Below, one piece after another: positions 4,498 to 64,000 of a stretch of DNA of 64,000 bases. Within the stretch, counting starts at the first letter, position 1, and every line of letters starts with the position of its first letter. This DNA comes from Turnera subulata (taxonomy: Eukaryota; Streptophyta; Magnoliopsida; Malpighiales; Passifloraceae), in the NCBI GenBank assembly GCA_028386065.3, contig JAKUCV010007279.1, positions 19,980 through 83,979 on the forward strand, read 5' to 3'. A model generated the notes under the pieces. The model ran no database searches, was not told the origin of the DNA, and was given only the letters and a program-made list of their open reading frames with translations. A program made the position numbers and the translations under genes.

Positions 4498-4677
4498 TCA
4501 AAATAATTTTCTTGGTGGAGTAATTAGCCATTCATTGTGAGGATTCTTTATTAATGATTGTTCTTGTATTCTTTTTTCTAGATCTTCTATTTTCCTAATT
4601 ATTTCGGATAGTTTATCAAATATTTTTTCCATCTTATCTTGTATTTCTTGAATATCTTCGGTGAGTTTTCCAGTCAT
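4498..4677 (-). CDS. 59-aa coiled-coil ORF, virion-associated-protein-like
   Basis: This small ORF begins with the ATG inside ATGA, where the A that completes the TGA stop of the movement-protein ORF is shared (4677-4674). It stops at 4500-4498. Residues about 5-42 form a charged heptad-like stretch (repeated I/L at a/d positions with K/E between), and the tail reads ITPPRKLF. In caulimovirids a short coiled-coil virion-associated protein often lies just downstream of the movement protein, so position and shape fit that role. The match is by architecture, not by sequence identity. The ATGA overlap suggests coupled translation. Confidence 0.45.
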   Translation of the reverse strand: MTGKLTEDIQEIQDKMEKIFDKLSEIIRKIEDLEKRIQEQSLIKNPHNEWLITPPRKLF

Positions 4678-5618
4678 AATTGATCTCGTATTTCTTGGGA
4701 AATTTTAGTTAATTCCGCTAATTGTTTGCTTAATCTTGTATTTTCAGTTGGATGTATATTTACTGGTTGGTCAATTCCAGTTGGATGTATATTTACTGGT
4801 TGGTCAATTCCTTCAATTTTTATCTTACTAGTCTCAGCTTCTTCTTGATATGTTGTATCTTTTAGTAAAGGTCTTGGATTCGTTTGTTCTATTAATGCAG
4901 TTGGTATAAAGTGAATTCCATTTCTTTCAAAAATTTCATCTATAGTTATTTTCTCACTTTCTCTAAATTGAATACTATGGTGTGAGTTGCTTAACGCATA
5001 TCCTACTGCATATGTTATTGTGAATGGATAGTCATCCTGATTCATTAAGTTTTTCCTTTCAAAGTTAAAGATTAATCCTATACTATTTTTGAGATAATTA
5101 CTTGTAATAGGTATTCCATAATGTAAACTGATATCAAATTTAATTACTGTTATTTTTAAGTTTCCTGTGATTTTGCCAATGATTCTTTCCTTTACTGGTA
5201 AAATTCTATTATCAACAATAGTTATTTCGATTGGTGAATCAATTCCCTGAAAATATGTACTTTTTAAAATTATTTGAATTCTTCCGAAATGAATATAACT
5301 TATTTTTTTCTTGTCTTCTGACTTAACTCCTTTGAGCCTATTCTCAATTTCATTAGTGGTTACTAGTGGTAATACATAATTGTTATTGGCTTCTTTTATT
5401 TGAATAGGATATTCTTTCTGAAATTTTCCCAAATATAAGACGTTCTTTCTGCCTAGAAACTTCTTAATTGTTTCTGGTAATTTACTTGGTATTTGAATAT
5501 CATGTCCTTGTTTAATTGTTATTTCACCTTGCTTAGCTATTTCTCTGTAATTGAGTAAAATATCTTGACTGAATTCAAAATTATCTTCTTGTTCATGTAA
5601 TACCTGTATTCCTTCCAT
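4674..5618 (-). CDS. Movement-protein-like ORF (30K superfamily)
   Basis: This 314-aa ORF from an ATG at 5618 resembles viral movement proteins of the 30K superfamily, as in Caulimoviridae. These proteins enlarge plasmodesmata for cell-to-cell spread. Visible features are a central beta-rich core with YIHFGRIQIILKST, an Asp-containing VDNRILPVKERIIGKITGNL stretch, and YALSNSHHS near residue 210. The C-terminus has an exact in-frame duplication of an 11-residue unit (GIDQPVNIHPT, 33 bp, within about 4747-4812) and a short coiled-coil end. It lacks internal stops, which is notable for an endogenous copy. The preceding ORF ends about 190 bp upstream, and the next ORF overlaps its stop by 4 bases. 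Confidence 0.6.
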   Translation of the reverse strand: MEGIQVLHEQEDNFEFSQDILLNYREIAKQGEITIKQGHDIQIPSKLPETIKKFLGRKNVLYLGKFQKEYPIQIKEANNNYVLPLVTTNEIENRLKGVKSEDKKKISYIHFGRIQIILKSTYFQGIDSPIEITIVDNRILPVKERIIGKITGNLKITVIKFDISLHYGIPITSNYLKNSIGLIFNFERKNLMNQDDYPFTITYAVGYALSNSHHSIQFRESEKITIDEIFERNGIHFIPTALIEQTNPRPLLKDTTYQEEAETSKIKIEGIDQPVNIHPTGIDQPVNIHPTENTRLSKQLAELTKISQEIRDQL

Positions 5619-5805
5619 TTTAAATTCCTATATGCTTCTTAAACAGTACTTGGCGTCGTCTGCTCCCGGATCACAGTGACCATCTCAAGGAGATCCACTG
5701 TTTTTGCCATTAAAGGCTACACCGAGGATTTTCCAGCCGTTCGTGTTGCTATTAATTCTATATGCAGTATGCCTATCCTTTACAGAATTGAGTTGCTCAG
5801 ATTTG
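5619..5805 (-). other. Intergenic spacer in the pararetrovirus-like segment
   Basis: This is 187 bp between two ORFs. It is less AT-rich than the neighbouring ORFs. No promoter or primer site was recognised. Confidence 0.3.
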
Positions 5806-6408
5806 TTAGTCTGTTCGCGGATCATAGTTTAGAAAAAATGTATATACGTTTCCCTTTGTTTTATATCTGAGGTAGTTATAATAGTCTTTTCGTGGAAGAT
5901 TCTTTAATTCTTCAATTGTCTGAAGAGACAATAAATGCCTACTTACCCATTCGTCAATTAGCTCTGTTCTGTTTGATGCACAATCTAAGTCTAGAATTCC
6001 TTGATATCCTAATTCTTTATTAATTGGAGTAAATTCGAATAAATCTGGTTGCCTTAATATCTGAGTTTTTGACTTGTAAAATCCTTTTTGGTAGATTTTA
6101 GGTTCATAAGTGTCTTGCCATTTGAATGATTCTTCATGCTTACGTTTTTTATTTTCATCTTGTGTTTGATCAAAAGGTTTTCTTTCACTAGTTTCTCCTT
6201 GTTCCATAAAGCCTTGTTCTTCATCGCTACTCGAATATCCAAATATTAATTCTTCATTTTCATTTGGTTCAGATATTGTGATTCCTTTTTGTTTTTTGTG
6301 TGTTATCTCATATAATGGTTTGCTGTTAATTTCAAAATCCTGATTTTCTATTTTAAGTGCTTCCAATTGTTTAATCAGGCTTTCGATTAAATCTATCTTA
6401 TCTTCCAT
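5806..6408 (-). CDS. Possible coat-protein N-terminal-like ORF
   Basis: The open frame extends upstream to 6468, but only from a TTG. The first ATG is at 6408, inside the end of the preceding ORF, so that ATGGAAGATAA contains both its start and the upstream TAA stop. From there it encodes about 200 aa: a Leu/Ile/Lys-rich N-terminal coiled coil, an acidic Ser/Glu-rich middle, and a C-terminal Trp-containing region (ELIDEWVSRHLLSLQT) followed by YYNYLRYKTKGNVYTFF. That 'W...Y..YK..G.V' pattern recalls caulimovirid coat proteins. The resemblance is weak and no zinc knuckle follows, so the protein would be truncated. Confidence 0.4.
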   Translation of the reverse strand: MEDKIDLIESLIKQLEALKIENQDFEINSKPLYEITHKKQKGITISEPNENEELIFGYSSSDEEQGFMEQGETSERKPFDQTQDENKKRKHEESFKWQDTYEPKIYQKGFYKSKTQILRQPDLFEFTPINKELGYQGILDLDCASNRTELIDEWVSRHLLSLQTIEELKNLPRKDYYNYLRYKTKGNVYTFFLNYDPRTD

Positions 6409-7132
6409 TATTGGAATATATTTGCCTTTTGAACTGTAAGTGCATAAGTCTGTTTCTTTTTCTGTCAAGTTTTTGTTGTAATATTTTTTGTTTCATGAAT
6501 ATCATCCTTAGTTCCTTTTCCCATTTCCCTGTTCTTGCCTTTCCTTTTTCTGCTGTCTGTATGCAGAGTGGACACAAGTACTGGTGTGACTCGTGAATCT
6601 GCTTTATTAGTGGGCACAGTTCTTGCTTTTCTGTTTCGTAAGCTAGAGCCAGGCTCACTATCGGTTCTTCCCACTGAAAAATTAATTCTTTATGCTTTTG
6701 CTCCATTGTCTTTTTTAATTCTGCTGAGATAATTAGTATATCATTATTGATATAACTAATTCTATATTTATCAGTTATTTTTTCAATTTGTGCGGTTAAC
6801 CGATAATAATTGCCAATCCGTTTCTCCTTTTCCGTGACTTGGATTCCTTTCATCAGCTGCGGATAATTACCGTTTGAGATTCCTAGCTGCATGAGAGCTT
6901 TGACCTTCACAATTTTGCCTTCTTGGATAATTGGATAGAGATTATATACCCGGATGTACATTTCTCGATCCTTGACTACTTTCTCTTGGAAATTCTTCAG
7001 TGCCTTTTGAATTCCTGCAGGGAACCATGCCATTTGGTGCCCTAGTGTATGCTTCTTAATATAAATTGTGTCAATTAAACCTGCGTAAAACAAGTCGTTA
7101 ATTATTGAGGTGTATATATGCTTTCTTGTCAT
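6398..7132 (-). CDS. Unrecognised 244-aa ORF, first of the pararetrovirus-like cluster
   Basis: It starts at an ATG (7132). The N-terminal half is hydrophobic/aromatic (IYTSIINDLFYAGLIDTIYI, then W-F-P and a charged helix). A later Cys cluster, CPL...CPLCIQ around residues 170-190, could bind a metal. The C-terminus is strongly basic (KQKILQQKLDRKRNRL). It overlaps the next ORF by a few codons and shares its AT-rich codon use, so the two were probably co-translated. No family is recognised. By position it precedes the movement-protein ORF, where caulimovirids usually have nothing or a transactivator. Confidence 0.4.
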   Translation of the reverse strand: MTRKHIYTSIINDLFYAGLIDTIYIKKHTLGHQMAWFPAGIQKALKNFQEKVVKDREMYIRVYNLYPIIQEGKIVKVKALMQLGISNGNYPQLMKGIQVTEKEKRIGNYYRLTAQIEKITDKYRISYINNDILIISAELKKTMEQKHKELIFQWEEPIVSLALAYETEKQELCPLIKQIHESHQYLCPLCIQTAEKGKARTGKWEKELRMIFMKQKILQQKLDRKRNRLMHLQFKRQIYSNNGR

Positions 7133-7199
7133 AAGCAGCCTAAGGGCCGAGATGTCGGCTTGGCCGCTCAGTTTTGGTTTTGACTTATGTTGGACATGA

Positions 7200-8709
7200 T
7201 TGGTATATCAGATGAAAAATAGATTATTAATAACCTCCACATAAATGGATAAGAGAACTATGGAAATAATAAAAGAACTGATAAGCCGTCTAATAACTGT
7301 TAACCGACATCATGCATAATCATCTTGTTTGTGCATTATAAATGATTATTGTTGTTATATTATAGGAATATCAAAGGCTTAATCGGATACCAGCTTCCGA
7401 GGAGTATCAGGTGAGGTTGCATATACGTCATTCCACCCGTGATAGCCGGGATGGTTGGTCTTGGAACTACATAAGTTCTATTGCATCTTATGGTTATTGT
7501 TGTTAATAACTTTGTGATATTTGCTGATATTTGTTGTGAGGATGGATAACCTTTGATATGTTGCACATGATACTGTGTTTGCCTTTCTGTGAATAATTTG
7601 CCTGATTGAACTGCTGAGCCAATTGAGTTTGTTTGTGGTATTATTGCTGTTGTTGTTGATTTATTGATTGTGGATTTATTGAGATGATGAGATAATTGGA
7701 TAATTGGAAATTGTGTTGACAACTTTAATGTCACTTGGAAAGTAGTGGTCTGACTCGATGGGTAAAGACTGTTTTGTGGTGGCCTTGACCTGGGTTCTTG
7801 AGGAAGCATGTCTATGCTTGGGATGTCTATCCCGTTGATTTATTTGAGATGTCTATCCCGTTGATTTATTTGGGATGTCTATCCTGTTGATATATTTGGG
7901 ATGTCTATCCCTGGGTTACTATTTTGGGATGTCGATCCCTGGGTTCTCTTGATTTTGGTCTGGCACCCGAAATATGTTGATATCCAGGTCTGATCCCTAG
8001 CTTGTCCAGTGACAGGGCCCCGAAAGATAAAAATTGGTAATAATAAGCATTCTTTTGGCCTTGGCTCAGTCTTGTTTGAAATGTGTTTTTGCTTTGTTGG
8101 GCTGTGATGTGTTATGTTCATATACACGTTGTCTCATGATCATACCTTGGGAGGTTGTCAGTATAGTCGGTTGACCGTGGTCGGCATAGGTTGCCGGTTC
8201 ACAGGTGTTGTTGTTGTCGTTGGTCGTGAGTAGTCTATCGTGGTTGGCAATGGTTGTCGGTTATCCTTTGTTAGTTGTCAAATTCTTTTGAAAATGGTCA
8301 GATGAGTATCATTTGTCGGTTTGATAGGATAATGAGATATGTTGGTTGTCGGCTGTGGTCGACGGTTGGGTGATTGTTATTTCTAAGGGTATGTCGATAC
8401 CCAGAGGTTGAGCTTAATGAGAAATGTTGTTGACGTGGTTACGAGTTGTTGTGATGACTACTGTTGCTGTTGCTGTGTTGTGATTCTACTTGGGGATCGG
8501 TTTGTGATGTTGATTGGGTATGGTCCGTGCAGGTTGCCGGCTACCCGGTGAGCGAGGCTCACGTGATTTGAGATTGTTTTGGTACCAGGTTAAATGATCG
8601 GCAAGTACAGTATCAGTGTGTTATCATATGATGAGGAACCTCTGTTCAGTATAGTCTGTTAGGACTAGTGTGTGTGTTGTATAGTCTGTTGAGACTGGGT
8701 CGGTTACCC
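7200..8709 (+). other. 3' half of the Tekay-like solo LTR, first part
   Basis: This holds the 'tataggaatatc...ttccgaggag' landmark (about 7360-7400) and six short inverted repeats of the GGGAT-GTCT-ATCCC type between 7804 and 7939, plus GGGTAT-GTCG-ATACCC at 8387-8402. A GT-rich stretch (8150-8560) with recurrent 'ggttgtcgg' follows. No protein-coding gene is supported. Confidence 0.5.
7804..7939. repeat. Cluster of AT-GTCT-AT-centred hairpin motifs
   Basis: Six successive inverted repeats share a 4-base loop. They are AAGCAT/ATGCTT (7804-7819), GGGAT/ATCCC (7820-7833), GAGAT/ATCCC (7846-7859, imperfect), GGGAT/ATCCT (7872-7885), GGGAT/ATCCC (7898-7911) and GGGAT/ATCCC (7926-7939). The loop is GTCT, or GTCG in the last. 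Confidence 0.85.
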
Positions 8710-9065
8710 TGTAACAGCCCGGGTAAAAATTTTGGATTTTTACCGGACTGTAAAAGTCTATTTACCGTGATTTACTGTTGAATTAATTTTGGGTAATTAA
8801 TTCAAGGTAAATCGGGAGTCGTTTTTTTGAATCCGAGTGTTTTCCCGCGCTCGTGATTTTCCCGTGGATTTTTCGGAACTAAGTTGGTATTTTTCGGGTT
8901 TCGGAATTTCTCGGAAAATCACACCGGAAAATAACTAAGGAGGTATCGGTTATTTTCTAGTCCGAATCGGACTCGCCCGTAATACGGACGAATCGTATTA
9001 TTGATATTCACATGCCAAATAGTAAATTTAAAGTTATAAAGAGGAGGAGGCAGCCGAAACCGGGT

Positions 9066-9357
9066 GAGAAAGGAGAAGAAAAAAAAGAAAGAGAGAAAAA
9101 GAAAAGGAGAGGAAAAAGAAAAGAGAGAAAAAAAAAGAGAAAAGAAAAAAAAAGAGAGAAAAAGGAAAAAGAGAAAAAGAAAAAAAAAGAAAAAGAAAAA
9201 TCGGGAGAAGGAAGAAACAGAGAGAAAAAAAAGAGAAAAAAAATAATACAGAAAATGAAAAAAAGAGAAGGAAAATCAGAAAAATCAAGAAAATGAAAAG
9301 AAAAGAAAATCAGGAAAATAAGGAAATGAAAGGAAAAAAAAAAAGAAGAAGAAGAGT
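9066..9357. repeat. A/G-rich low-complexity tract in the LTR
   Basis: A purine tract of about 290 bp (GAAAAAGAAAAGGAGAGG-like). Lys/Glu/Arg-rich frames on the plus strand and Phe/Ser/Leu-rich frames on the minus strand are artefacts of this composition. Confidence 0.9.
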
Positions 9358-10670
9358 GAACAGTAGTCACCCTCCCGCGCCTCCATCACTGTACACCGAG
9401 TGGAGTTCCGGCCGTCGTCTCGACACACCGCCACAGCCAGGGGAGTTGCCGCGCCGCCGCGACCCCGGAACCGCCTTCCCCGACTGATGCCGTTGCCGGA
9501 CGCGCGAGCAGGAAGAGCTGACCCGCTGCGAAACCCGGCGGATCCGGCTTCCTCCCGCGTCTGCACCTGCTCCAGCGCCGCCGTGCCTAGTTTTCCGCCG
9601 CCCCCGCGCCGCTCGTGCCGCCCAGATGTCGAGGTGGTGCTCGCGTCCTCCCTCGCGCCGTCGCTCGCCGTGCCGCCAGCCTCCTACCCGGCACCACGAC
9701 CCGCATCCGCCAGGTGAGTATCCGACTCCCAACGGGTTGGAGCTGCTGACGGGCAGGGTTGTTTGGGCTGTGGAACTGGGCTTGCAGTCTTGGCCGGGCC
9801 CTTGTACTTGGGCTTGGTCATGGGCTGCATAGTTCAGCCCAGTCCGCTTTATTATAAAAAAAAACAATATGTATATATATAGGTATTTATTTAATATTCT
9901 AGTATTTATTTTTGGAAAAAAAATTATATATTTATTTTTAGAAAAGTATGGGCAATTTAAATCTGGTATTTTTATTTTATTATAAATATATTTACTTTGA
10001 TAAATAATTAAGTTTTGTTTTGGAAACTATTATTAAATCGGAAAAAAAGAATATATATGTAACTTGAAATAAATTCTGGAAATTTAATATGTATATTATT
10101 TTCGTCTGGGAAATTGTGATTGTGGTTTATGTAAATAAATATGTAGTTTGTAAATTAAAGTTAATTATATTTTGTGTTGGAAATATTATTACTATATATA
10201 TTTAGAAAAGATAAATACTATATATATTTTTTGAAAATTATAAATAGGTTATTATTTTTCTGAAAAATTATAGTAATTATTATTTTGGATAATTATAGTT
10301 ATTTTATGAAAGTATTTTGAAAAGAATTTTAATTAAAATATAGTACCGAAATTATATTCGGATATACGTATGGTTAAATATTTTCGATAAATGATAATAA
10401 TAAGGGATAAGTAACCGGGATGGGTAATTACGTAGTATTGGCATCATTGCATACCGAATATGTGCATTTATGTGTATGTATGATTTTGTTGTATAGGTTC
10501 GGATATCGGGCAGTTTCCCGAGGAGCCGGCGTCGTACCGATCATTGTTTTCCGAAGTTGAGTAATCGACCAAGGTGAGGATGGATTTCCTTCAATATGTG
10601 CCTTATTACTCGGTTATTATGTTTTGATGATTATTGCATGGTTGGATGTTGTATTTGCTGTGTTTTGGTT

Positions 10671-10986
10671 CGGGATGTTTATCCCGGTGCTGGGTTCGTA
10701 TTTTTGGGATGTTTGTCCCGTGTTGATTTTCTGTGTTTTCTTTTGGATTAAGTATAAAAGATTACTTAATGAATTGTGATGAGGATGTCGATCCTCGGGA
10801 TTTTGGTTAGGTATGTCGATCCCTACGGTTTGTTTTTAATGACGGTATTATAATTGTCACGTGGTAAGTAGAGGTACGACCGGATGGTTAGAGACTATTT
10901 GTGGTGGCCATGATCTGGGTTACTTGATAAGCATGTCTATGCTTGGGATGTCTATCCCGGTTTGTTTTTTTTGGGATGTCTATCCC
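10671..10986. repeat. Second cluster of AT-GTNN-AT hairpin motifs (5' LTR)
   Basis: Inverted repeats around a 4-base loop: CGGGAT/ATCCCG (10671-10686), GGGAT/GTCCC (10706-10719), GAGGAT/ATCCTC (10781-10796), AAGCAT/ATGCTT (10929-10944), GGGAT/ATCCC (10945-10958) and GGGAT/ATCCC (10973-10986). The loop is GTTT, GTCG or GTCT. The 3' LTR repeats the set and has an extra perfect AGGGAT/ATCCCT (16298-16313), where the 5' LTR copy is mutated. Confidence 0.85.
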
Positions 10987-11536
10987 TGGGTTCTATTTTG
11001 ATCTAGCACCAGGAACAGGTTGATAACCTTGTACGACCCTAGCTTATTCGTGACGGGGCCCGGTAAAGATAAAATTGGTAATTGGTTTTTATTTGAGTCT
11101 TTTGGTTGGGCTGTTTAGCCTGTGTTTTTGGACTTGAGTAATTTTTAGTGTCCATATTGATCGTCTTTCCATTGTCGTGAGCACTTCGGACTCACCCCTC
11201 ACCTGCGGGCTTTCATCCCGTAGGATGAGTTGTTTGTTGTACAGGCTTGGTGCATTCCAGACAGGCTGCGGCGTTATCCCTTGGACAGGGCTCGGATCCA
11301 TAGGTTGCATCTATAACGCATACAGTGTTAGTGAGTCTTTAAGTCTTCCGCTGTGCATGTTTTTATTATTATTGGGCCATTGGGCCGGACGAGTTTCTAT
11401 TGTTGATTTTACTTTGGGCTGTTGAGCCCGTGTTCTTGTTGTATACACTGTATGCTGGTTTCATTTTGGGTTGGGTTGTCACAGTTCTGGCACGTGTTTA
11501 CTGTGTACGGTAAATACGGGTCGGGGCGTTTCATTT

Positions 11537-13961: not shown

Positions 13962-16900
13962 TGTAACAGCCCGGGTAAAAATTTTGGATTTTTACCGGAC
14001 TGTAAAAGTCTATTTACCGTGATTTACTGTTGAATTAATCTTGGGTAATTAATTCAAAGTAAATCGGGAGTCATTTTTCGAATCCGAGTGTTTTCCCGCG
14101 CTTGTGATTTTCCCGTGGATTTTTTGGAACTAAGTTGGTATTTTTCGGGTTTCGGAATTTCTCGGAAAATCACACCGGAAAATAACTAAGGAGGTATCGG
14201 TTATTTTCTGGTCCGAATCGGACTCGCCCGTAATACGGACGAATCGTATTATTGATATTCACATGCCAAATAGTAAATTTAAAGTTATAAAGAGGAGGAG
14301 GCAGCCGGAACCGGGTGAGAAAGGAGAAGAAAAAAAAGAAAGAGAGAAAAAGAAAAGGAGAGGAAAAAGAAAAGGGAGAAAAAAAAAAGAGAAAAGAAAA
14401 AAAAGAGAGAAAAAGGAAAAAGAGAAAAAGAAAAAAAAAAGAAAAAGAAAAATCGGGAGAAGGAAGAAACTGAGAGAAAAAAAAAGAGAGAAAAAAAATA
14501 AAACAGAAAATGAAAAAAAAGAGAAGGAAAATCAGAAAAATCAAAGGAAAAGNTGAGAAAGGAGAAGAAAAAAAAGAAAGAGAGAAAAAGAAAAGGAGAG
14601 GAAAAAGAAAAGGGAGAAAAAAAAAAGAGAAAAGAAAAAAAAGAGAGAAAAAGGAAAAAGAGAAAAAGAAAAAAAAAAGAAAAAGAAAAATCGGGAGAAG
14701 GAAGAAACTGAGAGAAAAAAAAAAGAGAAAAAAAATAATACAGAAAATGAAAAAAAAGAGAAGGAAAATCAGAAAAATCAAGAAAATGAAAAGAAAAGAA
14801 AATCAGGAAAATAAGGAAATGAAAGGAAAAAAAAAAGAAGAAGAAGAGTGAACAGTAGTCACCCTCCCGCGCCTCCATCACTGTACACCGAGTGGAGTTC
14901 CGGCCGTCGTCTCGACACACCGCCACAGCCAGGGGAGTCGCCGCGCCGCCGCGACCCCGGAACCGCCTTCCCCGACTAATGCCGTTGCCGGACGCGCGAG
15001 CAGGAAGAGCTGACCCGCTGCGAAACCCGGCGGATCCGGCTTCCTCCCGCGTCTGCACCTGCTCCAGCACCGCCGTGCCTAGTTTTCCGCCGCCCCGCGC
15101 CGCTCGTGCCGCCCAGATGTCGAGGTGGTGCTCGCGTCCTCCCTCGCGCCGTCGCTCGCCGTGCCGCCAGCCTCCTACCCGGCACCACGACCCGCATCCG
15201 CCAGGTGAGTATCCGACTCCCAACGGGTTGGAGCTGCTGACAGGCTGGGTTGTATGGGCTGTGGAACTGGGCTTGCAGTCTTGGCCGGGCCCTTGTACTT
15301 GGGCTTGGTCATGGGCTGCATAGTTCAGCCCAGTCCGCTTTATTTAAAAAAAAACAATATGTATATATATAGGTATTTATTTAATATCCTAGTATTTATT
15401 TTTGGAAAAAAATTATATATTTATTTTTAGAAAAGTATGGGCAATTTAAATCTGGTATTTTTATTTTATTATAAATATATTTACTTTGATAAATAATTAA
15501 GTTTTGTTTTGGAAACTATTATTAAATCGGAAAAAAAGAATATATATATAACTTGAAATAAATTCTGGAAATTTAATATGTATATTATTTTCGTCTGGGA
15601 AATTGTGATTGTGGTTTATGTAAATAAATATGTATTTTGTAAATTAAAGTTAATTATATTTTGTGTTGGAAATATTATTACTATATATATTTAGAAAAGA
15701 TAAATACTATATATATTTTCTGAAAATTATAAATAGGTTATTATTTTTCTGAAAAATTATAGTAATTATTATTTTGGATAATTATAGTTATTTTATGAAA
15801 GTATTTTGAAAAGAATTTTAATTAAAATATAGTACCGAAATTATATTCGGCTATACGTATGGTTAAATATTTTCGATAAATGATAATAATAAGGGATAAG
15901 TAACCGGGATGGGTAATTACGTAGTATTGGCATCATTGCATACCGAATATGTGCATTTATGTGTATGTATGATTTTGTTGTATAGGTTCGGATATCGGGC
16001 AGTTTCCCGAGGAGCCGGCGTCGTACCGGTCATTGTTTTCCGAAGTTGAGTAATCGGCCAAGGTGAGGATGGATTTCCTTCAATATGTGCCTTATTACTC
16101 GGTTATTATGTTTTGATGATTATTGCATGGTTGGATGTTGTATTTGCTGTGTTTTGGTTCGGGATGTTTATCCCGGTGCTGGGTTCGTATTTTTGGGATG
16201 TTTGTCCCGTGTTGATTTTCTGTGTTTTCTTTTGGATTAAGTATAAAGGATTACTTAATGAATTGTGATGAGGATGTCGATCCTCGGGATTTTGGTTAGG
16301 GATGTCGATCCCTACGGTTTGTTTTTAATGACGGTATTATAATTGTCACGTGGTAAGTAGAGGTACGACCGGATGGTTAGAGACTGTTTGTGGTGGCCAT
16401 GATCTGGGTTACTTGATAAGCATGTCTATGCTTGGGATGTCTATCCCGGTTTGTTTTTTTGGGATGTCTATCCCTGGGTTCTATTTTGATCTGGCACCAG
16501 GAACAGGTTGATAACCTGGTACGACCCTAGCTTATTCGTGACGGGGCCCGGTAAAGATAAAATTGGTAACTGGTTTTTATTTGAGTCTTTTGGTTGGGCT
16601 GTTTAGCCTGTGTTTTTGGACTTGAGTAATTTTTAATGTCCATATTGATCGTCTTTCCATTGTCGTGAGCACTTCGGACTCACCCCTCACCTGCGGGCTT
16701 TCATCCCGTAGGATGAGTTGTTTGTTGTACAGGCTTGGTGCATTCCAGACAGGCTGCGGCGTTATCCCTTGGACAGGGCTCGGATCCATAGGTTGCATCT
16801 ATTACGCATACAGTGTTAGTGAGTCTTTAAGTCTTCCGCTGTGCATGTTTTTATTATTATTGGGCCATTGGGCCGGACGAGTTTCTATTGTTGATTTTAC

Positions 16901-17021
16901 TTTGGGTTGTTGAGCCCGTGTTCTTGTTGTATACACTGTATGCTGGTTTCATTTTGGGTTGGGTTGTCATAGTTCCGGCACGTGTTTACTGTGTACGGTA
17001 AATACGGGTTGGGGCGTTTCA
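13962..17021 (+). repeat. 3' LTR of the young Tekay-like element
   Basis: It matches the 5' LTR almost base for base but is 236 bp longer. The extra length comes from a second copy of the A/G-rich tract, joined at an N (14553). The duplication around the N may be an assembly artefact. It ends at 17021, followed by the TACCC target duplication. Confidence 0.85.
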
Positions 17022-17026
17022 TACCC

Positions 17027-22224: not shown

Positions 22225-22433
22225 ACTTGTGTATTTTATTTGATTGCTACATAAACCATGTTTGCATATTTGTGTTCATGCATTCTCGTATATCAGTATA
22301 GGGCAATCATAACACTTACACACGAACACTAAGCAAATAAGTAGATGAGGACATGTTCAAGAGGAGTTTAGATCATCAGAAAGGTTAAAAGGAAAGTATG
22401 GAGAAAATCTAGTTTCAAGAGAGACCATCTATC
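22225..22433 (+). other. Spacer after the SIRE-like RNase H
   Basis: Non-coding remnant between the RNase H and the copia insertion; it resumes at 29371. It carries the CTATC duplicated on insertion (22429-22433). Confidence 0.5.
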
Positions 22434-23627
22434 TGTTAGTAATATGCCCAAAAGCCAATCAATGGATGATCGTATATAGTCGTGTATATACATTAAGGTT
22501 ATTCCAATAAATATGATTATGAGATAATCGCTTGCACATATTTATAACCCTAGAATATATATTTGATATATTCTTAAATGTCCCTAGTCGATTATTATTA
22601 TGGATGGGTTATAATAATAAATTAAGACTAGNNNNNGGATTATGATATGGTGATATCATTGGTATCCGTTTTACACAGTTAACTCGAGGATCAAGAAACC
22701 GAGATTAAACATATACGAGATTGACATATTCCATGTCTCGGTTTAATCTTGATAATGGGACGAAGGGACGATGACATGTTTCGAGGCATTTAGAATCAGT
22801 ACTGATCTTGTCGTTCGGGTAGCAATGATGTGTTGCTAGACGCCGCTCTTTGCTTATAATTGTAAAATGAGATTTTACAATTATTGTCGGATGTTACAAG
22901 TGCCTACAGGGTCACACACATAGAACCGTTGATTCGAGCAGGTGGTTGAACCGTGGTTGGACCATGGTTAGACCGGTTTGTGGTTGGACCGCAGTTGGAC
23001 CGTGGTTAGACCAGGGTCATTTTTGGGCTGACTTGGTTCACTAATTGACAAAATTATTGAACCAAATTAGGTGCATGTGATGTGTATGCCATTAGTGTTA
23101 AAGTGGTAGACAAGATAATGAGATTCCTAATCATAATGGATGGTCCATTATGTTGGCCATCATGTTGGCCATTATCTTGACCACTTAGTACACTAGTTAG
23201 GTTTGAGTGATCAGATTATTCTTCACCTCACTTGCAATTTTCAGAGCTCTTCAAGTCTTGAGAGAGAGTCCTTCAAGTTTTGAGAGTACACACACTTCCC
23301 TTCTTTGAGAAAGAAAGGATAAACACCACAAACTCAAGCTCCCGGAAATCTGCTGCTAGCACACCAGTTCGGGAGAGCTCGAAGTTGGAGATCGTGTGAC
23401 GATTCCGGCTTGATCACGGTTCGTGTGGATACCGTAGAGGGGCGGGATACCTTGTCTTGCTCTTGCTGATTCCGGCACTTCAGTTAGGTGGAAGATCCTA
23501 ACCGTGTAAGGTACGAAAAATTGTTATTCGGTTTATATGCTTCACATGTGTTCCTTTGTTGTTTCCGGAAATTCCGCTGCATGTCTTTCTTGTATATGAG
23601 TGTCATATAGCATACCGGAAACTTACA
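22434..23627 (+). repeat. 5' LTR of the copia element
   Basis: 1194 bp including NNNNN at 22633-22637. It contains a strong hairpin (AATTGTAAAAT-GAG-ATTTTACAATT, about 22858-22882) and a short tandem array of TGGTTGGACCG-type units (about 22940-23015) with one unit more than the 3' LTR. Confidence 0.85.
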
Positions 23628-23628
23628 G

Positions 23629-23640
23629 TGGTAGCGGAGC
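23629..23640 (+). promoter_or_regulatory. Primer binding site candidate
   Basis: TGGTAGCGGAGC lies one base after the LTR. It is the same 12-mer as in the Tekay-like element at 11537. Confidence 0.65.
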
Positions 23641-24074
23641 CTCTTGTGAAGCTCTAAACTGAATTCATGTTCATATGTTACATGTGATGTAACTTGAACT
23701 TGTTTAGGAATATGTGATATGCTGGAATTCTTTTTAGTATATGAGATATGCTTGCATATGTGTGATATGCTGAATTTGTTTTGGTATATGTGATTTGCCA
23801 TGCAAATATATGCATATGTTTGATATGTTTTTGGTATATATACATGATATGTTCTATGTGATAAAGCATGATCATGTTATATTGTATTCAATTGTGTATA
23901 TGTGATATATATGTTGCTGAGGTTGATTTGTCAAAAATGTTTTGATAACAAGCACTTGATTGGTATGAGATTTCAATCAAGATTTTCATGGCAGTAAGTC
24001 GAAGAGTTCGACTAAGAAAAATCGAGTGTCGGTTTGTGTATCGAACGATTGTTGTTCTAGTACATCTAGGCCAC

Positions 24075-25085
24075 AACATCGATGTTAGTGTGACCAACAT
24101 CGATGTTGGCATGAGTTTAGCTTTGGCCAAACCTTCATAACATCGATGTTGTGTGACAAACATCGATGTTCTGATGAAGTGTAGCCTAGGCCGAATCTTC
24201 ACAACATCGATGTTGTGTGACCAACATCGATGTTGTCATGCAAACACTCAACAACATCGATGTTAAGAGTTACAACATCGATGTTATTTGAGCTCGGCCA
24301 AATTGGTTTGAAGTTCCAGAATTCAAATAATATCGATGTTCAAGTTCCAACATCGATGTTATTGAGTTCCAGAAGTTCAAACATCGATGTTAGTGTGACC
24401 AACATCGATGTTATCATGCTACTGCCAAAATCTTGAACTTTCAAGTACTCAAAACATCGATGTTTAAGTGTTCAACATCGATGTTCTTGAGCTACTACCA
24501 AATAGTTTGGAGTTCAAGTACTCAAACATCGATGTTTAAGTGTTAACATAAATGTTCTATGCGTTCGGCAACCTCCAACATCGATGTTTGATGGTCAACA
24601 TCGATGTTTTGAGGGTTCGGCAACCTGCAACATCGATGTTTCATGGTCAATATCAATGTTTTGAGGGTTCGGCAACCTCCAACATCGATGTTTGATGGTC
24701 AACATCGATGTTTTAAGGGTTCGGCAACCTCCAACATCGATGTTTGAGTGTCAACAGCGATGTTTTGCAGATTCGCAAACTCCAAACATCGATGTTGAAG
24801 GGTTCAACATCGATGTTGTGGAACCCAGTAACTTCAACTGCGAATTCGGGGCAGAAGGAGGCCGAATTGATGTCTGGCCTGAATAGAAAAGTTGTGGCCC
24901 TACTTCTTAGGTTTCCAGGGACACCAAGTTTGCACAAATCCGAGCTCTACAGCTCTGGATATGGCCGAAATACTAAGTGCTGCCAAGTAGTTGGGAGAAT
25001 CAGATTCTCAAAACATCGATGTTCAAAGTTAGACATCGATGTTCACATGTATTTTTGGTTTCCAAACTTACATAACATCAATGTA
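24075..25085. repeat. Array of 14 paired 12-bp palindromes AACATCGATGTT
   Basis: 23 perfect AACATCGATGTT sites plus six near-matches. They fall into 14 pairs in which the second site starts 20 or 21 bp after the first, plus one lone variant at 25074-25085. Pair starts: 24075, 24139, 24203, 24253, 24329, 24380, 24453, 24525, 24577, 24629, 24681, 24733, 24785 and 25012. From 24577 to 24785 the pairs repeat at exactly 52 bp; the first three are 64 bp apart. It lies in the leader between primer site and gag. Open frames across it (repeating N-I-D-V or T-S-M-L) are by-products of the motif. Confidence 0.95.
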
Positions 25086-25602
25086 TGATTTTTTGATTAT
25101 ATGCATGTGATGTATGAGCATATGTTGATGAAATATTAAGTTCTTAGTTGCCTTCCATGATAAGCACTCATCATTGCTTAGATCAACACTAGGTAGGTTT
25201 TGCCAAAACAAGGTGCCTATGTTTATCCTAGCAAGGTGAGAGTGGATAATTGTAATATCTCGACTGCTTATTGTGGGTTTGGACTTAACTAAGTCATCTT
25301 AATAGGATTAAGGACTTAGAGGCAAGGGTTGAGTAATGTCTATGAGACAGATATGGACAAAGTGTTGTTCATTCAACTATCCAAGAGTTACATGAGATGT
25401 AATTGACAAGAGTTGTCTACCTAAATAGCTATGATGTAAGTGATCAGCCAAAGCTGACTTATACTGTGGTGAAATATGGATCTTGGCCTACTTATTATTA
25501 TTTTGATTCATAGTAGGAGTATCATTTAATAGAATTCCTTGTTAAATGATTTTGTATACATGACTATTATTTGTGTGAGTTGATCATTGTTGTAGAGTTA
25601 CC

Positions 25603-26280
25603 ATGGCACAAAACACTAGCACATTATCATTGCGATCGGTCCTTGAGAAGGACAAGATGAATTGGAATAGTTTCCTAGAGTGGAAACACATTTTGAGGAT
25701 AGTCCTCAAACAAGAAAAGAAATTGTATGTCCTTGAATGGCCTGTTCCTAATGAACCGGCGCCTAATGCTCTTAGGGCAGAATGAGATGCTTATAAGAAG
25801 CATGTTGATGATGCATTGGATGATTGCATGCCTTATGCTAATTACCATGGACTCTGAGCTTCAGAAGCAATATGAGAACATGGGGGCGTTCGATATGATC
25901 GAACATCTGAAAATGCTCTGTGTAGAGCAAGCAAGGCATGAGAGGTACGAGACCTCTAAGGCATTGTTCCAATGCAAGATGGCCGAGTCATCACCCGTGA
26001 GACCTCATGTGCTCAAGATGATTAGATACAATGAGAGCCTTGAGGGTCTTGGTTTCCTTGGCAAAGGAAAGGGTAAAGCAAAGTTTGACAAGAAGAAGAA
26101 ATGTACCAAATGGTTTGGTGCATGTACATCTTCTTGTTCTCATGTGCTGAATCCCATGGGTGGTGTTACAAAGGTAGGAAATTGTTTCCGTTACAACAAA
26201 CCAGGCCATTAGAAGTGCAACTGCCCTGTTTACCATGAAAAGGTAAAGAAGCAGAAGGGAAGCGAGACTTCTGCTTCAGG
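25603..26280 (+). pseudogene. Copia gag remnant
   Basis: Starts at an ATG (25603) after a GAGTTACC context. A stop follows 60 codons. The reading continues in other frames with a gag-like helix-rich region (QYENMGAFDMIEHLKMLC) and a nucleic-acid-binding knuckle reading CFRYNKPGH. In the knuckle the second Cys is replaced and the residue after the His is a stop. Gag forms the virus-like particle; this copy cannot make an intact one. Confidence 0.65.
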
Positions 26281-28150
26281 TATTTTGTTATAGAGGCTAA
26301 TATCTCTACCTCAGCATCATGGGTATTAGATACCAGATGTGGTTCTCACATTTGTGGAAATGTGAAGGAACTGAGAAAGAGTAGGAGATTGGCTAAGGGT
26401 GAGTTAGACCTACGCTTCGGAATTGGAGCAAGAGTTGCTACATTATTCGTAGGGACTCTTTATCTATCCTTCCCTATTGTTTTGGTTTCAAAACTAGACA
26501 ATTGTTATTATGTACCTACCATAAGCAGGAATTTGATTTCTGTGTCTTGTATGGACAAGAAAGGTTTTTCATTGATAATAAAGAACAATTGTTGTTCTAT
26601 TTATTTCAATGAAGATTTATTATGGTGGTGCATTTTAAACAATGGTTTGTATGTTCTAAACCAAGAAACGCCTGTCTATAACGTTAATACGAAGAAGGTT
26701 AGAATGAATGATTCTAGTGAAACCTATCTTTGGCATAGTCGTTTGGGCCATATAAACGAGACTCGTATTTCTAAACTCCATAAGGATGGAATTTTAGACT
26801 CATTTTATTTTGAATCATTTGAGACATGTGAGTCATGTTTATTAGGCAAAATGACGAAGGCTCCTTTTATCGGTAAAGGTGAAAGAGCTTCGGACTTGTT
26901 AGGCCTTATACATACTGATGTATGGGAACCTATGTCGACACAAGCTAGAGGTGGATTTCAATACTTCATTTCATTTACTGATGATTTCAATAGATATGGC
27001 TATGTGTACCTTATGAGACACAAGTCATAATCCTTTGAAAAGTTCAAAGAATTCAAGAATGAAGTACAAAATCAACTCGGAAAAGTATTAAGATGCTTCG
27101 ATCAGATCGAGGCGGTAATATTTAGACCGAGAGTTTCTTGATCATCTAAAGGGTTGCGGTATAGTATCACAACTTACTCCACCGGGTACGCCTCAATGGA
27201 ATGGTGTATCCGATAGGAGGAACAGAACCTTGTTAGACATGGTTCGTTCTATGATGAGTCAAGCTGATTTTCCTTCTCCATTTTGAGGACATGCATTATT
27301 GAGTGCTGCATTTACACTTAACCGTGTTCCATCTAAATCGGTCAAAAAGACACCATATGAGATATGGACTGGGAAGCGTCCCAATTTGTCTTTTATTAGG
27401 ATTTGGGGTTGTGAGGCTTACGTAAGACGTGAAGCATCAGATAAACTCGGCCCTAAATCCGACAAGTGCCTTTTATATGATACCTTAAAGGGTATTAAGG
27501 TAAATACTTGGTTAGGGAAGAATTTATCGATGAAGGACTTAGGAGGAGCTGCCTAAATGTTAGGTATAATGATCTATAGAGATAGATCCAAAAGGCTTCT
27601 TGGGCTAAGTCAGAGTACGTATATTGACAAGGTGCTAAAGAGGTTTAGCATGCAAGATTCCAAGAAGGGTTTCTTGCCCATGTCACATGGCATATCTCTC
27701 TCAAAGAATCAAGGTCCTAATACGACTAAGGAGAGAGAGCAGATGAGTAAGATCCCTTATGCTTCTGCAATAGGATTTGTCAGGTATGCCATGCTATGTA
27801 CTAGACCGGTTATCGCTTATGCTTTGAGTGTCACAAGCAGATGCCAATCTGATCCCAGTGAAAGTCACTGGACAGCAGTTAAGAATATCCTTAAGTACTT
27901 GAGAAGCAATAAGGATGCTAGCTTCTCAAACTGTCAGGGATGATTTTAGATCGCAATCAGGTTATGTGTTTTTGTCTTGGAGGTGGCACTATTTGCTGCA
28001 AGAGTTCCAAGCAAGAAACAGTTGCCGACCCTACAACTGAGGCTGGACTAAGTTCTGTTTGAGAACTATGTAGCAGATCTTTTGACTGAGCCTCTCACAC
28101 AGCGGAAGCATGATGGTCATGCTACATCCATTTATATTAGATACATGGAT
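26281..28150 (+). pseudogene. Copia pol remnant (protease, integrase, RT tail, RNase H pieces)
   Basis: In order: a protease-like DTRCGSH (active-site Gly of D-T/S-G replaced by Arg), a GAG-pre-integrase segment with HSRLGH...CESCLLGK (integrase zinc-binding H and C residues), IHTDVWEPM and SFTDDF (integrase core), an integrase C-terminal piece (27299-27480), then a jump directly to the RT C-terminal LGIMIYRDRSKRLLGLSQ (27557). The RT palm with its YVDD is missing. RNase H is in fragments up to 28110. Multiple stops and shifts make it non-functional. Confidence 0.75.
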
Positions 28151-28176
28151 GATTGGCTTTAGTGTAAGTGGGAGAT

Positions 28177-29365
28177 TGTTAGTAATATGCCCAAAAGCCA
28201 ATCAATGGATGATCGTATATAGTCGTGTATATACATTAAGATTATTCCAATAAATATGATTATGAGATAATCGCTTGCACATATTTATAACCCTAGAATA
28301 TATATTTGATATATTCTTAAATGTCCCTAGTCGATTATTATTATGGATGGGTTATAATAATAAATTAAGACTAGCGTATGTTGAGAATTTATATGTGATA
28401 TGAATTCTACATACGGGTACAAGTTGGAGAACTTGTGGACAAAGAAACCGAGATTAAACATATACGAGATTGACATATTCCATGTCTCGGTTTAATCTTG
28501 ATAATGGGACGAAGGGACGATGACATGTTTCGAGGCATTTAGAATCAGTACTGATCTTGTCGTTCGGGTAGCAATGATGTGTTGCTAGACGCCGCTCTTT
28601 GCTTATAATTGTAAAATGAGATTTTACAATTATTGTCGGACGTTACAAGTTCCTACAGGGTCACACACATAGAACCGTTGATTCGAGCAGGTGGTTGAAC
28701 TGTGGTTGGACCATGGTTGGACCGGTTTGTGGTTGGACCGTGGTTAGATCAGGGTCGTTTTTGGGCTGACTTGGTTCACTAATTGACAAAATTATTGAAC
28801 CAAATCAGGTGCATGTGATGTGTATGCCATTAGTGTTAAAGTGGTAGACAAGATAATGAGATTCCTAATCATAATGGATGGTCCATTATGTTGGCCATCA
28901 TGTTGGCCATTATCTTGACCACTTAGTACACTAGTTAGGTTTGAGTGATCAGATTATTCTTCACCTCACTTGCAATTTTCAGAGCTCTTCAAGTCTTGAG
29001 AGAGAGTCCTTCAAGTTTTGAGAGTACACACACTTCCCTTCTTTGAGAAAGAAAGGATAAACACCACAAACTCAAGCTCCCGGAAATCTGCTGCTAGCAC
29101 ACCAGTTCGGGAGAGCTCGAAGTTGGAGATCGTGTGACAATTCTGGCTTGATCACGGTTCGTGTGGATACCGTAGAGGGGCGGGATACCTTGTCTTGCTC
29201 TTGCTGATTCCGGCACTTCAGTTAGGTGGAAGATCCTAACCGTGTAAGGTACGAAAAATTGTTATTCGGTTTATATGCTTCACATGTGTTCCTTTGTTGT
29301 TTTCGGAAATTCCGCTGCATGTCTTTCTTGTATATGAGTGTCATATAGCATACCGGAAACTTACA
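28177..29365 (+). repeat. 3' LTR of the copia element
   Basis: 1189 bp, nearly identical to the 5' LTR except for a block of about 70 bp at 28374-28440 that is unrelated to the matching part of the 5' LTR (about 22633-22697). Confidence 0.85.
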
Positions 29366-29370
29366 CTATC

Positions 29371-62878: not shown

Positions 62879-63802
62879 GTGTAAGTTTCCCGTAAACTAT
62901 ATGACACTCATATACAACATCAATCATGCAGCGGAAGCACGGAAACTAACCAAGAACCACATGTGAAGCATATAAACCGTATAACAAAATTTGGTACCTT
63001 GTTCGGTTGAGGTCTTTCACCCAACTGCTGGAACCGAATCAGCTAGAGCCAGACAAAGGCCTCGCCCCTCTACGGTATCCACACGAACCGTGATCAAGGT
63101 GGTGTCGTCACACGACCCAACTTCCGAGCACTCCCGGACTGGGTGCTAGCAGCAGAAACCGGGAGCTAGAATGGTTGTGGTGTTTCTCTTGTTTCTCAAA
63201 CAAGGGTGTATGTGTGTATGCTCTCTCAAGTTCTCAAGAACTCTTCTAAAGAACAAAACCAGAGTATGCCAAGATGAAGAGGAAGTGATCTAATCACTCA
63301 AACCACACATCCAAAGCTAGTGGTCTTTGTTGGTGTTCTTTCTTCTCTCTTTTACAAAGAAGAAGAAGAGGAAGTGAGTAAGTGAACTCAAGACTCTCTT
63401 GAGCTTCTTGTGTCTGTCAAAAACGTGATGTGCAGCTCTCAAAGGGTCTGAAAAAACTGATCACAACACACACACTTCCACTAACACATGTTGGCATAAG
63501 ATAATGTGACTAATGGCAAACATGGTGGTCCAATGATAATGACATTCATTATCATTAGCCTCCACTAATCACACTAATGTATTATCACACATGACAGCAC
63601 TAATAAGGCTCAATTATGCTGACATTCAGCAAACCAAACACCCAAAAACGACCCTGGTTCAACCATGGTCCAACCACGGTCAAACCACAAACCGGTCCAA
63701 CCATGGTCCAACCACGGTTCAACCACCTGCTCAAATCAACGATTCTATGTGTGTGACCCTGTAGGCACTTGTAACGTCCGGCAATAATTGTAAAATCCCA
63801 TT
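62879..63802 (-). repeat. Truncated reversed copy of the 22.4-kb copia LTR family
   Basis: On the plus strand it starts TGTAAGTTTCCCGTAAAC and follows the reverse of the LTR at 22434-23627 (R/U5 end first), with matching 'cctctacggtatccacacgaaccgtgatca' and the GGTCCAACC-type tandem array (63650-63725). It ends in the loop of the AATTGTAAAAT hairpin and joins gypsy-like coding sequence. No primer site or internal region lies beyond its left end. Confidence 0.75.
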
Positions 63803-64000
63803 TGATACGAGCAAGCCAATTCCAAGTGGAACTCAAGATCGTGATGATGCCATTAGCTTGCCTCAAGGACCAGTCACGAGGGCTCGGTTGAAGAAGATAA
63901 AGAATCTCATGTTACATTATGCTCAAACTTGGGTCAATCGGGAGTTGCAAGAAGATAAGTTGGACAAGTTTGGAGATGAATTTAAAGAGATTCCTAAGTT
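63803..64000 (+). pseudogene. Ty3-gypsy polyprotein fragment running off the window
   Basis: An open frame from about 63804 to the end reads LPQGPVTRARLKKIKNLM followed by a charged helix. The GP.TRARxKK motif recurs in plant Ty3-gypsy polyproteins. Only about 65 codons are visible and the start is a truncated junction, so completeness cannot be judged. Confidence 0.5.

Follow-up and report, generated by a model that had tools for sequence, protein, structure and literature searches.

Palindromes repeated many times within one retrotransposon have been described in the Sireviruses, in which a Ty1/copia element carries at least 8 and up to 32 copies of a motif that precedes the promoter region or occupies the linker and is conserved amid diverged flanks (Bousios et al. 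2010, PMC2829016). The accessible text of that paper describes the motif as specific to Sireviruses, with a core that is mostly CGG-CCG and is so in all entries of its table but Tnd-1, which contains 8 copies of ACAATCGATTGT with an ATCGAT core; the terms helical, phase and spacing appear there only in the reference list. Clusters of a Sirevirus palindrome in maize map to regulatory regions of copia long terminal repeats (LTRs), where they are hot spots of small RNAs, and the palindrome is also present in Helitrons, according to the available portions of PMC10760457 and PMC5311732. A comparable architecture is known from the insulator of the Drosophila gypsy retrotransposon, where, as its accessible description states, the 5' untranslated region holds 12 Su(Hw) sites, all recognised by one host protein (PMC2374998). 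Here we report on a palindrome array in the leader of a probable copia-type element of Turnera subulata, found in a stretch of 64,000 nucleotides (contig JAKUCV010007279.1, positions 19,980 to 83,979 of the forward strand), hereafter called the window. The array probably belongs to the class of homotypic binding-site arrays in LTR retrotransposons, its nearest described relatives being the Sirevirus repeated motifs, and its sites are mostly spaced near whole turns of the double helix.

The 64-kb window was searched for AACATCGATGTT allowing at most 2 mismatches, and 33 matches were obtained, compared to a mean of 3.66 and a largest value of 9 in 100 shuffles. Twenty-nine of the 33 lie inside positions 24075-25085, and 23 of these are exact, which agrees with the 23 exact copies and six variants counted in the original prediction, an earlier annotation made from the sequence alone. 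The recount also reproduced the 14 intra-pair offsets of that annotation (Table 1) and its 13 pair-to-pair steps (64, 64, 50, 76, 51, 73, 72, 52, 52, 52, 52, 52 and 227 bp). Tandem Repeats Finder (TRF) recognised local tandem units of 64, 73 and 52 bp with an 81-85% match, indicating that the window array grew partly by tandem duplication. A coding repeat was ruled out, since offsets of 20, 21, 43 and 52 bp have no common reading frame, and a chance origin was excluded by the shuffles together with the genome-wide counts of reversed controls.

Specifically, the assembly containing the window (518,689,335 bases, or 519 Mb, in 7125 contigs) includes 76,101 exact copies of AACATCGATGTT versus 63 of the reversed word. 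Exact pairs with starts 20 or 21 bp apart (8-9 bp between the sites) number 29,517, whereas the reversed pattern has 15; pairs displaced by half a turn, at 25 or 26 bp (13-14 bp between), likewise total 15. Twenty stretches were fetched from the genome. Fifteen of them lay at or beside listed matches, and 14 of these held arrays (L018 did not); the remaining five were picked regardless of matches, and one of them (L029) had an array. The main sample therefore consists of 23 arrays of at least 4 sites, namely that of the window and 22 from the fetched stretches, and a further sample covers 14 of the 15 places with a 25/26-bp pair (C4126 omitted), which were chosen for their off-phase pair. Rather than array-less relatives or random spacing, we observed in other copies of the family that the 20-21 bp spacing and the palindromes are kept while the spacers have diverged, and a tandem expansion limited to one copy was ruled out by the genome-wide pairs and by the arrays in the sampled stretches; these results favour the array as it was originally proposed.

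Clustering of the 23 arrays, with the sites masked and the flanks included (E<1e-6), gave five groups: A, the family of the window, with 4 arrays, B with 8, C with 7, D with 3 weakly linked arrays, and E with 1. When the flanks alone were clustered for 37 arrays, the groups were A with 12, C with 12 and B with 10, plus the singles L023, L031 and L022_17, and they were the same at E 1e-6 and 1e-10; the former D arrays L015 and L021_9742 joined C through L038. Families B and C encode copia-type gag, integrase and RVT_2 domains (Pfam), L023 has a gypsy-type gag (PF03732, E 1.4e-6) and three further open reading frames (ORFs) with no Pfam match between its LTRs, and the L022_17 array adjoins an ORF with PF20167. 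A receptor-kinase ORF next to one array shares 77% identity with a Turnera subulata protein, and among the 120 matches listed no protein from another organism exceeds 56%, which makes an origin in the Passifloraceae in the wide sense likely. The reverse transcriptases of A, B and C are 35-53% identical, that of A being taken from L024 and assigned by its place after a matching integrase, while two members of C are 59% identical over pol. Judged from these domains, the flank clusters and the reverse-transcriptase identities, the arrays sit in unrelated elements, comprising three copia lineages and one with a gypsy-type gag.

The position of the arrays was measured between the array and the start of the primer-binding site (PBS), and TATA or PBS borders were readable in part of them. 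In families A and D the array lies in the leader and starts 447 bp (window), 317 bp (L013) and 107 bp (L023) after the PBS. In family B it ends 23-44 bp before the PBS, at the 3' end of the LTR, in four of eight arrays. In family C it ends 612 and 644 bp before the PBS in two of seven arrays, in a region taken as LTR, the partner LTR being outside the stretch; in three of the seven (L010, L014 and L021), TATAAATA, a TATA box, follows the array by 97-98 bp. The PBS match of L016 and L012_5955 is located elsewhere, and the other remaining arrays have no readable border. Arrays with readable borders thus occupy a 5' regulatory position.

Two of these loci have a peculiar structure. One flank of L038 matches family C and the other matches the flanks of L015 and L021_9742, so that its sequence would fit either a nested insertion or a recombinant. 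At L012:5934-8554 (minus strand), LTR-like repeats at 5934-6678 and 7836-8554, 95.7% identical, with a PBS match at 7833, enclose a 240-amino-acid ORF with a DEK C-terminal domain (7039-7758), and both repeats carry an array. This locus looks like a small non-autonomous LTR element with a captured host gene.

The spacing of the sites is strongly quantised. Within the 23 arrays, 225 of 229 steps between neighbouring sites are near 2, 3, 4 or 5 helical turns, with 124 steps at 18-22 bp, 13 at 30-33 bp, 19 at 41-45 bp, 69 at 50-55 bp, four elsewhere, and none at 23-29, 34-40 or 46-49 bp. Calculated on 1159 distances no longer than 320 bp, the best period is 10.50 bp; taken singly, families A to D gave 10.34-10.56 bp, and E, with 15 distances, 10.82 bp. 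Gaps between pairs fall within 2 bp of a whole turn in 87 of 104 cases, compared to 39.6 expected, and none of 20,000 jittered sets was as good. Because the arrays grew partly by tandem duplication, gaps within a family are not independent; hence, we repeated the test on non-redundant gaps, after removal of those with similar spacers, and found 13 of 16 within 2 bp of a whole turn, again with none of 20,000 jittered sets as good. Even at the 14 loci selected for an off-phase pair, 62 of the 78 other gaps are within this distance. Therefore, we conclude that steps near whole turns, with a period of 10.50 bp, align the sites along a single face of the double helix. A pair together with its gap often measures 72-74 bp.

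Some short words recur between the pairs, namely TGCCAA in 12 of the 104 gaps (families A and B; shuffles 1.0), GGCAGA in 9 (A, B and C; shuffles 0.1) and CCGTTG in 12 (C and E; shuffles 0.5). These over-represented words sit in related arrays, and a second binding site between pairs is possible, which we do not claim.

By comparing diverged copies of the same group, we found that site columns are 65-100% identical, a value inflated by their definition through motif likeness in either copy, against 53-63% for the other array DNA. The difference is significant at p<1e-3 in nine of the ten comparisons (sites 85-100%). In the controls of recent divergence, sites and the rest were equally conserved, with 98.6 versus 99.4% for the L012 repeats and 97.3 versus 97.3% for L021 and L022. 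Sites are thus kept in diverged copies with no difference after recent divergence, indicating that they are conserved while the elements are active and drift afterwards. The spacers, in contrast, comprise 166 distinct sequences in 212 sampled pairs and are 31-32% identical to one another.

Variants were tallied on 252 sites and 118 pairs, no more than one change being allowed in the ten-base core; related copies in this set are not independent. The consensus has the core ACATCGATGT, with ends that are preferably A...T and otherwise mostly G...C, and the variants of the outer letters are nearly strand-symmetric (A1>G 18, T12>C 23). Inside single sites, 79 single changes gave 27 G-T and 52 mismatched combinations, and two of four double changes restored symmetry; within-site changes therefore lend no support to compensation.

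All together, these data lead us to propose, at roughly even confidence, that the palindromes form a homotypic enhancer-like array for one dimeric sequence-specific factor, most likely a host nuclear protein. A dimeric protein would bind each palindrome, the sites with the core ACATCGATGT being those of high affinity. Two sites two turns apart, at 20 or 21 bp and with little slack, would make a tight unit in which two dimers can touch, and units mostly 3, 4 or 5 turns apart, with 1-2 bp of slack, would permit cooperative binding along one face of the helix. Aligned over hundreds of bp, such units would be occupied cooperatively and could strongly influence the promoter whether located before or after the start, as an enhancer that precedes the TATA box in one lineage and sits within the transcribed 5' region in others. 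The factor would be a host nuclear protein on which several LTR retrotransposon lineages came to depend, and a host origin is the simpler reading because copia lineages and the gypsy-gag element have one motif.

We are somewhat more hesitant, leaning slightly against it, about the wider suggestion of a single master regulator shared by much of the LTR-retrotransposon community, in which the palindrome and its one-face grammar would have been converged on or exchanged. If true, more than 76,000 sites in one genome would constitute a retrotransposon-wide regulatory code that could be switched off by losing a single protein, and sites common to unrelated lineages would let one factor control the whole transposon community. 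The strict grammar of two-turn pairs and whole-turn steps, with 15 half-turn pairs against 29,517, would be an unusually clean natural record of cooperative binding, and it renders the driver of plant retrotransposon transcription directly testable.

Several observations, besides the inflated identity of the site columns, weigh against the proposal of an enhancer-like array for one factor. The comparison of the window with L019a, one of the ten, gave 65 versus 58% with no significant difference. Part of each array arose by tandem growth, and the non-redundant phasing test left only 16 gaps. When the array DNA is retained, single-linkage clustering merges A and C, giving a group of 24; the join rests on a single 47-bp unit, 93.6% identical between the L033 and L010 arrays, whose flanks are of different families, and common descent or exchange of array pieces is accordingly possible. 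TATAAATA was not seen near ~97 bp in the other four of seven family-C arrays, and a search for a plant factor with the core ACATCGATGT gave nothing useful in the accessible portions of the literature. In addition, five of seven double changes at the outermost pair of the stems restore Watson-Crick pairing, as RNA would predict; all those that restore pairing are at the outermost position, and two are in near-identical copies.

The last point bears on the choice between the two readings originally put forward, palindromes on one DNA face forming an operator-like array for a dimeric protein, or RNA stem-loops for packaging or dimerisation, the second of which had been favoured. The geometry of the first reading is now strongly supported, by a spacing quantised at ~10.5 bp in the family of the window as well as in unrelated elements, by the excess of in-phase pairs and by the strand-symmetric variants, and from it we infer the binding of a protein. 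As RNA, the pairs would fold as 12-bp stem-loops acting in packaging, dimerisation or translation, or as a source of small RNAs, like the small-RNA hot spots of the maize palindromes. Every pair is able to form a hairpin alone, and the predicted folding of the region 24060-25050 is much stronger than that of 20 shuffles (z -19.4). Such strong folding is expected, because any row of palindromes must fold, and in the ensemble of 24000-25200 only 4 of the 14 local hairpins dominate, with a probability above 0.5. The argument from G-U wobble did not hold: of the seven base changes seen in the window's paired sites, three retain a G-U pair and four disrupt pairing. Single changes in the 118 pairs produced 22 wobble pairs and 45 mismatches, so that 45 of 67 break pairing, and transitions show no wobble bias (29 compatible with G-U versus 35 incompatible). 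Moreover, a hairpin requires complementarity, not an identical palindrome across pairs and families; it gives no rationale for 10.5-bp phasing between pairs; and three members of family C carry the array ahead of the TATA box. Phasing and strand-symmetric variation hence speak for DNA sites of a dimeric protein rather than for RNA stem-loops, which, even with the restored pairing described above, appear highly improbable to us.

The main alternative to a host factor is a transposon-encoded one, similar to the VANC proteins of VANDAL elements, which are DNA transposons. In such an anti-silencing system, a reader encoded by a transposable element would strip or block methylation on elements with a sufficient number of sites, and other lineages would have acquired its sites to profit from it. 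The central CpG and the great density of the motif are consistent with this, as is the broken window element, which inserted recently and so probably received trans-acting help. However, no DNA-binding protein encoded by a transposable element was identified here, the motif is common to copia and gypsy-gag elements while VANC targets differ between related families, and the accessible part of PMC5735166 makes no mention of phase, spacing or palindromes; we regard this explanation as unlikely. Quite unlikely, in our opinion, is an insulator or boundary array of the Drosophila gypsy type, in which a host protein clustered on the 5' leader would screen the element from its neighbours or organise chromatin. 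The leader anatomy is the same in families A and D (three arrays with a readable PBS), but the location of family C upstream of the TATA box and of family B at the LTR end suits promoter control at least equally. A phased motif might also bend DNA or position nucleosomes with no dedicated factor (2 x 73.5 bp = 147 bp), as the phasing itself and the frequent 72-74 bp of a pair plus its gap would allow; since a structural role of this kind would tolerate change, whereas the 10-bp word, in sites admitted by likeness, is near letter-perfect amid divergence, we find it very unlikely. The least probable explanation is a neutral, satellite-like tandem expansion, spread between elements by recombination and functionless. 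The TRF units of 52-73 bp in the window and the 47-bp unit common to one family-A and one family-C array agree with it, but whole units should then stay alike, against the diversity of the spacers next to intact sites, and the equal divergence of sites and spacers in recent copies indicates that conservation belongs to the active lineage.

The element carrying the array in the window is an LTR retrotransposon insertion at 22434-29365 on the plus strand, with an untranslated leader of 2 kb (Table 1). Paired LTRs, a target-site duplication and a PBS provide the anatomy of a Ty1/copia LTR retrotransposon, and the element is probably copia-type. Its TGGTAGCGGAGC at 23629 resembles a PBS for initiator tRNA-Met. 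Most of the reverse transcriptase was not seen in three-frame translations read by eye; L024, a relative of the window family, has an ORF at 594-2270 with 35-49% identity to RVT_2 proteins, which is taken as the reverse transcriptase of the family from its position after a matching integrase. The two LTRs differ by 11 substitutions in 1102 columns (1.0%, the garbled stretch by the five N excluded), as expected of a recent insertion, and since the coding region is broken this copy was probably mobilised in trans.

Table 1. Coordinates, in the window, of the palindrome array and of the element containing it
Feature	Position	Strand	Evidence
Target-site duplication CTATC, 5' side	22429..22433		LTR alignment
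5' LTR, 1194 bp	22434..23627	+	self-BLAST, alignment; 5 N at 22632-22636 with garbled stretch adjoining
Primer-binding-site-like TGGTAGCGGAGC	23629..23640	+	sequence match
Palindrome pair 1, offset 21	24075..24107	+	motif search
Palindrome pair 2, offset 20	24139..24170	+	motif search
Palindrome pair 3, offset 20	24203..24234	+	motif search
Palindrome pair 4, offset 21	24253..24285	+	motif search
Palindrome pair 5, offset 20, first site 1 mismatch	24329..24360	+	motif search
Palindrome pair 6, offset 21	24380..24412	+	motif search
Palindrome pair 7, offset 21	24453..24485	+	motif search
Palindrome pair 8, offset 20, second site 2 mismatches	24525..24556	+	motif search
Palindrome pair 9, offset 20	24577..24608	+	motif search
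Palindrome pair 10, offset 20, second site 2 mismatches	24629..24660	+	motif search
Palindrome pair 11, offset 20	24681..24712	+	motif search
Palindrome pair 12, offset 20, second site 1 mismatch	24733..24764	+	motif search
Palindrome pair 13, offset 21	24785..24817	+	motif search
Palindrome pair 14, offset 20, second site 1 mismatch	25012..25043	+	motif search
Unpaired degenerate site, 2 mismatches	25074..25085	+	motif search
gag-pol remains, stops and frameshifts, non-autonomous	25603..28176	+	three-frame translations, domains by eye
3' LTR, 1189 bp	28177..29365	+	self-BLAST, alignment
Target-site duplication CTATC, 3' side	29366..29370		LTR alignment

Other features of the window were also noted. 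Next to the five N at 22632-22636, part of the 5' LTR does not match its 3' counterpart, probably as a result of a gap-filling error. At 62879-63803 (minus strand) there are fragments of a related LTR, with 78-80% identity and followed by no PBS or leader. Positions 9065-11534 and 14554-17022 form a direct duplication of 2.5 kb, 98.5% identical, with an N at 14553 directly before the second copy, and represent either a recent duplication or an assembly artefact. Three adjacent ORFs of 220-314 amino acids at 4674-7132 (minus strand) resemble, as we presume from inspection by eye, an endogenous caulimovirus-like element. Neither tRNA genes nor Rfam families at gathering score were found in the 64-kb window.

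Matches outside the genome were set aside. A viral contig collection contained no exact pair. Five bacterial contigs (L001-L005) carry the same pair, in 21-bp tandem repeats that by eye would encode 7-amino-acid repeats; they were taken as unrelated and are probably a codon coincidence. In the accessible portions of the literature, the exact 12-mer AACATCGATGTT appears only in protein-structure papers, for example as a crystal oligonucleotide, and this glucocorticoid-receptor match was rejected.

In conclusion, the array resembles each of the described systems in part. It shares with the Su(Hw) sites their clustering in a 5' leader, which applies to the window, L013 and L023 only and not to families B and C; the Su(Hw) motif, as far as its accessible description goes (PMC2374998), is non-palindromic and of another sequence, and its function has been shown, whereas ours is proposed. 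The VANC repeats likewise combine motif density with tandem growth, but in the available text they belong to Arabidopsis VANDAL elements, are read by a protein of the element itself and vary in motif between families (PMC5735166). For the maize palindromes RNA secondary structure is invoked in the accessible parts of the reports (PMC10760457, PMC5311732), while the 10.5-bp phasing observed here points to DNA. Among the openly accessible papers listed, taken by title and start of abstract, there is no account of this array or of helical phasing of palindromes in plant LTR elements. The Sirevirus motifs are the closest, as many copies of one palindrome in the LTR or linker are found here too, with families A and D having them in the leader instead, and the ATCGAT core is common to Tnd-1 and to our array. 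The CGG-CCG core is absent, the core here being ACATCGATGT, and the palindromes occur in several copia lineages and in a gypsy-gag element, in fixed two-turn pairs and also in leaders. The gypsy-type gag of L023 means that at least one host is not a Sirevirus. Relative to the Sirevirus motifs, the array differs in being shared between lineages, in its placement in leaders and in its helical grammar.
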